The translations under genes and the position numbers were made by a program. 41,877 nt of DNA from Alphaproteobacteria bacterium MarineAlpha5_Bin7 (GTDB taxonomy: Bacteria; Pseudomonadota; Alphaproteobacteria; HIMB59; GCA-002718135). Below the pieces are notes generated by a model, which saw only the letters and a program-made list of their open reading frames with translations, was not told the origin of the DNA and did not search any database. Location: positions 1 through 41,877 of the forward strand of contig PTKX01000001.1 in assembly GCA_002938195.1 (NCBI GenBank). The letters are read 5' to 3'. Of the stretch, positions 12,510 through 26,152 are shown piece by piece. How positions within the stretch are numbered: the stretch's first letter is position 1; every line of letters begins with the position of its first letter.

Positions 12510-14102
12510 ATGGCTAAACAAAAAATTAAAGTTATTAGAGAAGAAATGCTTCAAGTTGCTAGTAATGTAGCACAAGAGAAAAATATTGAAAAAGATGAAG
12601 TTTTTGAAGCAATGGAAATGGCGTTAGAAAAAGCTGCAAGAGTTAAATATGGATTTCAGAGAGATATTCGAGTTAAAATTGATAGAGAGAGTGGCGATAT
12701 AAACTTAAGTTCATATCTTAAAGTAGTAGATACAATTGAAGAAGAAGAAGAAAAAAATCAAATACTTATCGATGAAGCAAAAAAATTGAAATCAGACATT
12801 CAATTAGGTGAATATATAATTAAAGAGTTACCACCTTTTGACTTTGGAAGAGTGGCAGCACAAAACGCAAAAGGTGTAATTATTCAAAAAGTAAGAGAAG
12901 CTGATAAAGCTAGGCAATATAATGAATATAAAGACAAAGTTGGTGAAATTGCATTAGGAGTTGTCAAAAGAACAGAATTTGGAAATCTTATTATTGATTT
13001 AGGCAAAAGTGAAGCAATAATTAAACGAGAAGAAATCATTCCAAGAGAATCTTTTAAGAATGGTGATAGAGTTAGAGCTTATATTTATGAAGTAAAAGAA
13101 GACACTAAAGGGTATCAAGTATTTTTATCTAGAACTCACCCTCAATTTTTAGCTAAATTATTTACTCAAGAAGTTCCAGAAATTCTTGAGAAAGTAATTG
13201 AAGTAAAAAGTGTAGCTAGAGATCCTGGATCACGAGCAAAAGTTAGTGTCTTTACTGAAGATAGCACTATCGACCCAGTTGGAGCATGTGTAGGAATGAG
13301 AGGTTCAAGAGTCCAAGCTGTTGTTAATGAGTTGCAAGGTGAAAAAATCGATATTGTTATGTGGTCAGAGAATCAAGCTACCTATTTAGCAAATGCATTA
13401 GCGCCAGCAGAGGTAAGTAAAATTTTTGTATATGAAGAAAAAAATAAAGTAGAGGTAGTAATTCCTAATGATCAATTAAGTTTAGCTATTGGAAGAAAAG
13501 GACAAAACGTAAAACTTGCATCAAATTTAACAAATTTAGAAATTGATATTCTTACTGAAGATGAAGAAACTGAAAGAAGGCAAGAGGAATTTAAAGTTAA
13601 AACACAAATGTTAATTGAGATATTAGATGTTGAAGATGTTATTGCTCAGTTACTAGTCACTGAAGGTTATGTTTCAATCGATAGTATAGTAAATGAAAAA
13701 CAGGAAAATTTAGAAAAAATAGAAGGTTTTGATGAAGATTTATCTCAAGAAATAATTGAGCGAGCAAAAAGTTATATTAATGAGCAAAACAAAGAAGATC
13801 TAAAGATAATTGATGCAAAAATTTTCGATGAAGAATTAAAAAATTTATCTGGAATAAATAACAAAATGTTAGCCTTATTGGCAAATAATAATATTTGCAC
13901 TTTAGATGAATTTGCTGGGCTTGCAACCTACGATCTTTTAGACAAGACGGAAGGCATCTTTAGAGAATTGGATATAGATGAGACAACAATTAATGATATG
14001 ATAATGAAAGCTCGTGAAAAATGGTTTAAAGAAGATAGTGACGTTAAAGAAGATAGTGACGTTAAAGAAGATAGTGACGTTAAAGAAGATAAGGAACTAT
14101 AA
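12510..14102 (+). CDS. nusA: transcription termination/antitermination factor NusA
   Basis: This protein has about 530 residues. It contains the NusA N-terminal domain (1-125), an S1 domain (about 130-200, with V-G-E-I-A-L-G-V-V-K-R), and two KH domains. The first KH domain holds V-G-A-C-V-G-M-R-G-S-R-V and the second L-A-I-G-R-K-G-Q-N-V-K-L-A. Acidic alphaproteobacterial C-terminal repeats follow. The ATG at 12510 is chosen over an in-frame GTG at 12477 because that GTG lies inside the terminator-like hairpin and the conserved sequence starts at M-A-K-Q-K. It modulates RNA polymerase pausing and termination. The extreme C-terminus is built from an 18-bp tandem repeat. rimP, normally just upstream, is missing. 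Confidence 0.95.
   Translation: MAKQKIKVIREEMLQVASNVAQEKNIEKDEVFEAMEMALEKAARVKYGFQRDIRVKIDRESGDINLSSYLKVVDTIEEEEEKNQILIDEAKKLKSDIQLGEYIIKELPPFDFGRVAAQNAKGVIIQKVREADKARQYNEYKDKVGEIALGVVKRTEFGNLIIDLGKSEAIIKREEIIPRESFKNGDRVRAYIYEVKEDTKGYQVFLSRTHPQFLAKLFTQEVPEILEKVIEVKSVARDPGSRAKVSVFTEDSTIDPVGACVGMRGSRVQAVVNELQGEKIDIVMWSENQATYLANALAPAEVSKIFVYEEKNKVEVVIPNDQLSLAIGRKGQNVKLASNLTNLEIDILTEDEETERRQEEFKVKTQMLIEILDVEDVIAQLLVTEGYVSIDSIVNEKQENLEKIEGFDEDLSQEIIERAKSYINEQNKEDLKIIDAKIFDEELKNLSGINNKMLALLANNNICTLDEFAGLATYDLLDKTEGIFRELDIDETTINDMIMKAREKWFKEDSDVKEDSDVKEDSDVKEDKEL
14028..14091 (+). repeat. 18-bp in-frame tandem repeat at the nusA 3' end
   Basis: The unit AAAGAAGATAGTGACGTT occurs three times in perfect tandem (14028-14045, 14046-14063, 14064-14081), followed by a partial fourth copy (14082-14091). 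It encodes a repeated K-E-D-S-D-V acidic tail. Exact identity of the copies implies recent slippage or unequal exchange. The copy number probably varies between strains (inference). Confidence 0.9.
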
Positions 14103-24101: not shown

Positions 24102-25280
24102 TTATTTGTCCATATAAATATTAATTATTTTATTAACTAATATTTTTGCAACATTTTTTTTTGTCATTTTTTTAAAATGTTCTATCTTAGTTTTATCTAT
24201 TATAGAAACTCTATTATAATCAGAATTAAATACATTATTAATCTTGTTAATTTTATTTACTACAATTAAATCACATCCTTTTGAGATCATTTTTTCTTTA
24301 GCATTTAAGATATGATTGTTTGTTTCAGCAGCAAATCCAATAATAAGGTTATTTTTTTTAAATGTTTTTTTGGAGAAATTTTTTATTATATCTGGATTAT
24401 TCTTTAATATAATATTTTTTAATTGATTTTTTTTAATTTTTTTATTTGTAGTTTTTATTGGAGATATATCAGAAACAGCAGCAGTAAAGATTGCTATATC
24501 AAATTTATTATATTTTTGCACAACTCTATTCATTTCTTTAGCTGTTTTAACTTTAATTATTTTAGTTTTTGTAGGAGGTTGTAAATTTGTAGGACCACTT
24601 ACAAGTGTAACATTAGCTCCACTAAGTATAAGTTGTTTAGCAATTTCATAACCTTGTTTGCCAGAAGAGTAGTTGGATATATATCTTACTGAGTCGATTT
24701 CCTCTATAGTAGGTCCAGCAGTGACAATACAGTTTTTATTTTTAAGTTTATGAGTATTTTTTAAATTATCATATATTATTTGAATAATTTTATTTTCATT
24801 AGATAGTCTACCAAGCCCAGTTTCCCCGCAAGATAATTTACCATAATCTGGTCCGATAAATTCAGCACCATTTTCTAATACTTTTTTTACATTTCTTAGG
24901 TTGATATTGTTATTCCACATTTCCACGTTCATAGCCGGAACAAATACTATTTGTTTATCTGAAGCTATTAAAGTTGTGCTTGCTAAATCATCAGCATAGC
25001 CATTAGAATATTTTGCAATGATATTGGCCGTTGCTGGGCATACTACAATTAAGCTCGCTTTTCGAGCTAGTCTTATATGAAGCATTTTTTTTCTTTTTTC
25101 AGAAGAATCTAAATAAATTTTTCCTTTAATAATTTTTTTTAATGGATTTATATCTATAATTTTTTTAGCGCTATTAGTGACAATTATATCGATGATGATT
25201 TTTTTTTTAGAAAGTTCACTAACTATTTTTTTACATTTTTTAGCTGCGATTGATCCTGTAATAATTAGCAATAAATTCAT
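24102..25280 (-). CDS. coaBC: bifunctional phosphopantothenoylcysteine decarboxylase / phosphopantothenate-cysteine ligase
   Basis: This 392-residue CoaBC (Dfp) carries out two steps of coenzyme A synthesis. The CoaC flavoprotein half (1-180) shows I-T-G-S-I-A-A-K-K, His68 (M-L-H-I-R-L), P-A-M-N...M-W (115-122) and Cys151 in L-S-C-G-E-T-G. The CoaB half (about 183-390) shows V-T-A-G-P-T-I-E-E-I-D-S-V-R-Y-I-S-N and the C-terminal S-K-G-C-D-L-I-V-V-N-K region. The protein is complete. Its 5' end (first 35 codons) is duplicated immediately upstream, so its ATG now sits six bases after the stop of a 41-codon partial copy and not on the ubiE stop. The usual ubiB between ubiE and coaBC is absent. 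Confidence 0.95.
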   Translation of the reverse strand: MNLLLIITGSIAAKKCKKIVSELSKKKIIIDIIVTNSAKKIIDINPLKKIIKGKIYLDSSEKRKKMLHIRLARKASLIVVCPATANIIAKYSNGYADDLASTTLIASDKQIVFVPAMNVEMWNNNINLRNVKKVLENGAEFIGPDYGKLSCGETGLGRLSNENKIIQIIYDNLKNTHKLKNKNCIVTAGPTIEEIDSVRYISNYSSGKQGYEIAKQLILSGANVTLVSGPTNLQPPTKTKIIKVKTAKEMNRVVQKYNKFDIAIFTAAVSDISPIKTTNKKIKKNQLKNIILKNNPDIIKNFSKKTFKKNNLIIGFAAETNNHILNAKEKMISKGCDLIVVNKINKINNVFNSDYNRVSIIDKTKIEHFKKMTKKNVAKILVNKIINIYMDK

Positions 25281-25438
25281 TAAACTTTATAACCTTTGTG
25301 TATACTTAGTGACAATTATATCGATGATGATTTTTTTTTTAGAAAGTTCACTAACTATTTTTTTACATTTTTTAGCTGCGATTGATCTTGTAATAATTAG
25401 CAATAAATTCATTAAACTTTATAACCTTTGTGTATACT
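25174..25438. repeat. 132-bp tandem direct duplication across the ubiE/coaBC junction
   Basis: Copies 25174-25305 and 25306-25437 match base for base with a period of 132, except one site (C at 25256, T at 25388). One further matching base (25438) follows. Each copy holds the last codons of ubiE and the first 35 codons of coaBC. The period is a multiple of three, so the reading frame is conserved. Near-identity shows the event is recent, or an assembly artefact. The ancestral junction was evidently a TAATG overlap (ubiE TAA, coaBC ATG at 25412). Confidence 0.97.
25287..25412 (-). pseudogene. duplicated N-terminal fragment of coaBC (41 codons)
   Basis: Starting at the ATG that overlaps the ubiE stop (TAATG), this frame repeats the first 35 codons of CoaBC with one change. 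The Gly of the flavin-binding T-G-S-I-A-A motif becomes Arg (AGA for GGA). It then reads K-Y-T-Q-R-L from duplicated ubiE DNA and stops at TAA (25289-25287), six bases before the real coaBC ATG. It cannot make a functional decarboxylase. It is probably still translated through coupling to ubiE and could pass ribosomes to coaBC by re-initiation (inference). Confidence 0.85.
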
Positions 25439-26152
25439 CACAATTCCATCAAAAATATTAATAAAATTTGAAGTTGTGAATCCAGCATCATTTATCATAT
25501 CTAACAAACTTTCCTGATTTGGGAACAGACTTATGCTTTCATCTAAATATTTATATGCATCTTTATTGTTTGCAATTTTATCTCCCAAAAAAGGAATAAT
25601 TTTTTTTTTATATTCATTATATAATGAATTAATTATAGTTGTATTTGGTGTGCTAAATTCAAGACAATAAAAAGATCCTCCAGGTTTTAATATTCTGTGA
25701 GCTTCACTCAAGGCCTTTTCTATATGTGTTACGTTTCTTAAACAAAAAGATATTATATATTTATCAAAAATATTTTTTTGGAAAGGCAGGTTCTCTGCAT
25801 TTGCATTAATAAACTTTATTTTATTATATTTGTTATTTTTAAATTTATTTTTGCATTCATTTAACATATTAGCATTAAGATCTACACAATATATCTCATT
25901 ATTATTATTTTTTTTTGTAATTAATTTAATCAAATCACCAGTACCAGAACCAACATCAATTATTTTTTCATTACTACGAATATTCATTATTTCTAATAAT
26001 GTTTTTTTCCATATTCTATGAGTCCCAAAACTCATAAGATCATTCATCAAATCATAATTTTTTGAAACATTAGTAAATAATGATTGAACAAGAGAAGTTT
26101 TCTCAGAAATTTTAATTTTTCTTTTGCCAAAATTTGTTTTTAGATTATTCAT
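25412..26152 (-). CDS. ubiE: ubiquinone/menaquinone biosynthesis C-methyltransferase UbiE
   Basis: This 246-residue SAM-dependent methyltransferase matches the UbiE/COQ5 family throughout. The N-terminus has V-S-K-N-Y-D-L-M-N-D-L-M-S-F-G and R-I-W-K. SAM motif I is D-V-G-S-G-T-G-D-L, followed by F-C-L-R-N-V-T and R-I-L-K-P-G-G; the C-terminus is I-V-S-I-H-K-G-Y-K-V. It methylates the benzoquinone ring in quinone synthesis, which links to the quinone-sensing RegB encoded in the same window. Its last codons are duplicated downstream. Its start lies ten bases from the divergent mutM ATG. Confidence 0.96.
   Translation of the reverse strand: MNNLKTNFGKRKIKISEKTSLVQSLFTNVSKNYDLMNDLMSFGTHRIWKKTLLEIMNIRSNEKIIDVGSGTGDLIKLITKKNNNNEIYCVDLNANMLNECKNKFKNNKYNKIKFINANAENLPFQKNIFDKYIISFCLRNVTHIEKALSEAHRILKPGGSFYCLEFSTPNTTIINSLYNEYKKKIIPFLGDKIANNKDAYKYLDESISLFPNQESLLDMINDAGFTTSNFINIFDGIVSIHKGYKV

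Follow-up and report, generated by a model that had tools for sequence, protein, structure and literature searches.

A 132-bp tandem repeat spanning the ubiE/coaBC boundary in the draft genome of a marine alphaproteobacterium

Genes and repeat at the ubiE/coaBC junction

The window, by which we mean the whole stretch of 41,877 nucleotides analysed here from Alphaproteobacteria bacterium MarineAlpha5_Bin7, carries ubiE and coaBC as neighbouring genes on the minus strand. The boundary between them is straddled by a head-to-tail tandem repeat of two 132-bp units (25174-25305 and 25306-25437), which are identical at 131 positions. The sole mismatch lies at unit position 83 (C at 25256, T at 25388) and is flanked by runs of identity of 82 and 50 bp. 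The features of the junction are:

25412..26152, minus strand: ubiE, intact, 246 aa, family matched over almost its full length
25306..25437, minus strand: copy B of the 132-bp unit (the 5′ copy on the coding strand), source of the true ubiE tail and of the spare CoaC fragment
25388, minus strand: the single differing base, T where copy A has C (25256), making residue 9 of the spare fragment Arg instead of Gly
25287..25412, minus strand: spare 41-codon CoaC N-terminal ORF, its ATG on the ubiE stop and its TAA six bases ahead of the coaBC ATG
25305..25306, no strand assigned: novel junction between the copies, with 1 bp of exact homology and AATTGT in common nearby at offset positions
25174..25305, minus strand: copy A of the unit (the 3′ copy), holding a spare ubiE tail and the first 107 nt of coaBC
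25281-25305, minus strand: the spare ubiE tail within copy A, which now lies immediately ahead of the genuine coaBC start
24102..25280, minus strand: coaBC, intact, 392 aa, almost full-length family match (TIGR00521 at 362.7 bits)

The sequence GTCACTAAGTATACAC is specific to the novel copy-copy junction. On re-reading the repeat in the window, we recovered the same coordinates, unit length and copy number as an earlier note on this DNA, as well as its layout of stops and starts, with TAATG at the end of ubiE and TAA, 6 nt and ATG at coaBC. The note had also described both genes as rebuilt intact with a 41-codon partial coaBC between them, and the ORFs of 246 aa, 392 aa and 41 codons bear this out.

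Both genes are whole because the unit spans the end of ubiE and the start of coaBC. The ubiE tail is supplied by copy B and the coaBC start by copy A, so that the 25 nt ahead of coaBC are still the native ones. The 41-codon ORF encodes CoaBC residues 1-35 with Gly9 replaced by Arg, followed by a frame-shifted ubiE tail and TAA; taken alone it scores 18.9 bits against TIGR00521, under the cut-off of 219.7, as compared with 362.7 for the genuine gene. No second coaBC was found elsewhere in the genome. Since 132 is a multiple of three (44 codons), coaBC follows in the frame of the fragment, after TAA and two sense codons (TAA-AGT-TTA-ATG), a continuity that the earlier note overlooked. The fragment’s stop is a second copy of an in-frame TAA that already preceded the ancestral coaBC ATG.

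The junction in relatives

The nearest relative in the genome collection, G003, belongs to another genus of the family (67% CoaBC identity) and shares the gene order of the window (rpsT, mutM, ubiE, coaBC, a ThiF/MoeB-like gene and fabA), with a single-copy ubiE-TAATG-coaBC junction. With one unit removed in silico, the window again shows this TAATG overlap and encodes both proteins in full. All 29 family junctions read, namely those with ubiE present (loci L003-L005, L007-L031 and L036), are single-copy; the TAATG overlap is the usual spacing (26 junctions), while two have +4 nt and one, that of L036, has a native stop-to-start spacing of +6 nt.

A second CoaBC N-terminal match was found in none of the 86 relatives with a CoaBC match (100 genomes searched) and only in the window’s own genome, and the 41-codon fragment is absent from all relatives examined. 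The genome collection holds no second strain of the species, the window’s genome being alone in its genus among the genomes searched, and viral contigs searched by protein and by the exact junction yielded none either. As judged from these genomes, the duplication is limited to the window’s lineage, or to its assembly. The earlier note’s proposal of a lineage-specific duplication that rebuilt both genes thus holds against relatives, as G003 has the collapsed TAATG form and no relative has a second copy; likewise, the comparison of junctions that it had suggested finds a single copy in 29 of 29 and the duplication fixed nowhere.

Comparable repeats and homology at the junction

We searched 282 kb of the window’s genome (the window and twelve 20-kb stretches) for tandem arrays with a period of at least 24 bp and a match of at least 85%, and found only a 24-bp repeat besides the one at ubiE/coaBC. 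Because these 282 kb hold only that one other array, chance is excluded as an account of the observation, and general repeat instability of the genome was rejected as an explanation, there being no other comparable tandem repeat. In 492 kb of related loci there was no array of the 132-bp class, and the only two detected, of 51 and 59 bp, lie in unrelated genomes. Two smaller repeats were noted in coding sequence. At 14026-14091 of the window, 3.7 copies of a perfect 18-bp repeat give a NusA-like protein a C-terminus of KEDSDV repeats, and at 13422-13540 of locus L095 directly repeated segments of about 46 bp, with a spacing of 72 bp, lie just ahead of a TatC-like gene.

Microhomology was considered as proof of origin and rejected, as a 6-mer is shared near both breakpoints in about 8% of position pairs by chance. 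Work on Salmonella arrived at a cut-off of at least 11 bp of junction homology for true duplications, with shorter junctions inseparable from chimeras (PMC3411829).

The substitution in the spare copy

The single difference between the copies is a GGA to AGA change that turns Gly9 of the spare fragment into Arg. In 53 aligned rows this column has Gly in 51, Ala in two and Arg in none, so the residue that had been called invariant is nearly, though not strictly, so. The fragment allows 306 single changes, of which 141 lead to a residue unseen in relatives and 15 to a stop, 156 in total; with no selection at all, a change of this kind is therefore to be expected in about half of cases. A nonsynonymous change is indeed present, as would be expected of a copy free of selection, but one such change cannot show that freedom, and we take it as a weak sign of relaxed selection.

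By general rates, one copy of the 132-bp unit would be expected to be lost orders of magnitude sooner than it gains a point mutation. Tandem repeats of 101 bp in Escherichia coli delete at high frequency without RecA (PMC8378479), and because repeats near 132 bp are readily lost, the substitution is awkward for a neutral repeat. It may have arisen with the duplication or by sequencing or amplification error, or may reflect a low rate of loss here or selection keeping the repeat. Dating the event by this single substitution was rejected, with too few changes and rates that are not known; the substitution is unusable as a neutral clock.

Origin of the repeat

The explanation we favour, with moderate confidence, is a single lineage-specific 132-bp duplication of the slippage type at the ubiE/coaBC boundary, without selected function; that the duplication is real we consider probable. 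Replication slippage or template switching, at a junction nearly devoid of homology, would have produced it, and a unit reaching from the tail of ubiE into the beginning of coaBC would have left both genes whole again, with the 41-codon CoaC fragment and a 25-bp ubiE tail as the remainder. Two observations count against this explanation, namely that a neutral repeat is usually lost before gaining a substitution (PMC8378479), and that 1 bp of junction homology falls below the 11-bp Salmonella cut-off (PMC3411829).

That the second copy is not in the organism at all seems to us doubtful, though well worth weighing. It could stem from a chimera formed during amplification or library preparation, from gap filling or from joined overlapping contig ends, in which case the mismatch would be a strain variant or an error. 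The genome is a draft in 42 contigs, the repeat is the only large near-identical tandem repeat in 282 kb and is seen in no relative, its 1 bp of junction homology lies in the range where chimeras are inseparable from real events (PMC3411829), and the 6-mer shared near the breakpoints is not beyond chance (P ~0.08). The internal mismatch, on the other hand, means that the copies are not an exact shared contig-end k-mer above 82 bases, and a functional coaBC with Arg at a position where relatives lack it would be unusual as a natural allele, though the base could be an error. The stretches read also contain no Ns that would mark scaffolding, and a de Bruijn assembler needs junction-carrying reads to build a junction.

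Translation across the duplicated junction

In published reporter work, stop-to-start spacings of -8 to +10 nt were taken to predict translational coupling, and a spacing of +14 nt cost 40-80% in E. coli (PMC10666635). At the window’s junction, the spacings are -1 nt between ubiE and the fragment and +6 nt between the fragment and coaBC, both inside this range, and this geometry would be permissive for coupling by termination-reinitiation at each step. If the fragment ORF were not there, 131 nt would separate the ubiE stop from the coaBC ATG and coupling to ubiE would be lost; with the fragment, a two-step passage becomes possible. For a duplication without selected function, ribosomes finishing ubiE would then probably reinitiate on the fragment’s ATG, terminate at its TAA and start once more at coaBC, six bases further on, or coaBC might alternatively be initiated directly from its own intact start region, the fragment peptide itself being presumably functionless. 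Some drop in CoaBC is possible if each reinitiation step is less than fully efficient, though direct initiation may compensate, as coaBC has an intact start region with only weak structure.

The earlier note had suggested that the arrangement lowers or tunes CoaBC synthesis, a suggestion for which we find no support: the start region is intact (25 nt upstream and the gene start) and weakly structured, and the +6 nt spacing occurs naturally in L036. A structured leader was rejected, as folding at either start is no better than in shuffled sequences. Comparison of relatives and folding at both starts gave no evidence of selected regulation. A selected leader, in which the fragment lowers or tunes CoaBC through a forced second reinitiation, strikes us as very unlikely. 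Its -1 and +6 nt geometry permits termination-reinitiation at both steps, and persistence of the repeat up to a substitution would fit selection against loss, but the leader is missing from every relative, neither start shows structure beyond chance and the genuine coaBC start sits in its native context. Slightly less probable again is a reversible down-tuner kept by selection, where the second reinitiation would lower CoA synthesis and frequent deletion of one copy would revert it within the population. Finally, readthrough of the TAA to join fragment and coaBC into a longer CoaBC is barely credible, for although the frame is continuous over TAA-AGT-TTA-ATG with a unit of 44 codons, the same TAA stood in frame upstream of the ancestral ATG, which makes the shared frame a by-product of unit length (a chance of 1 in 3), and the product would bear a second, mutated N-terminal strand without evident use.

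Comparison with known systems

Like other short tandem duplications of bacteria attributed to slippage or template switching, the repeat has head-to-tail, near-identical copies, involves no mobile element and could be reversed by deletion between its copies; it differs in that its unit spans a gene boundary, so that no gene is broken. The verified duplications of Salmonella have 11 bp or more of homology (PMC3411829), against 1 bp exact at the window’s junction. The overlap of the ubiE stop with an ATG by one base is that of TAATG termination-reinitiation pairs, and a -1 nt stop/start overlap is a very common spacing in prokaryotes (PMC10666635), but in the window this ATG is the start of a truncated copy, and the real gene comes only after a further stop/start at +6 nt. 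With false tandem duplications in draft assemblies the repeat shares a nearly identical copy with a single mismatch and its confinement to one draft genome, whereas the copies here differ internally and join without a gap.

The duplication is probably an ordinary chance event, possibly an artefact, and the known picture of CoA and ubiquinone synthesis is unaffected. If real, it would be a natural boundary-spanning duplication in which nothing is broken and a coupled operon in a streamlined marine genome gains a translatable fragment, and it would offer a convenient site for measuring the loss rate of such repeats.

Other arrangements of ubiE and coaBC

In the window’s family (24102-26152 in the window) and the sister genus, the gene immediately ahead of coaBC is ubiE. 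In Pelagibacterales loci, ubiE is about 1.6 kb upstream of coaBC, leaving room for another gene, perhaps ubiB. The UbiB-like gene of the window’s genome is on another contig (G000:C40:28299-29270); UbiB-like matches fall under the family cut-off in 80 of 80 genomes.

In genus g7, a member of the sister family f2, one in-frame stop at the domain linker divides coaBC into coaC and coaB. The loci concerned are L101 (450-1611), L102 (540-1703) and L108-L127, and their genomes include G060, a single contig of 1,410,127 bp. The stop is TAA in 21 loci and TAG in one, and in all 22 loci read it is directly followed, in frame, by TTG or GTG and never by ATG. The arrangement resembles either an ancient, conserved fission of the gene, in which a non-ATG start sits right next to the stop, or a site of conserved readthrough, and is of greater interest than the duplication in the window.
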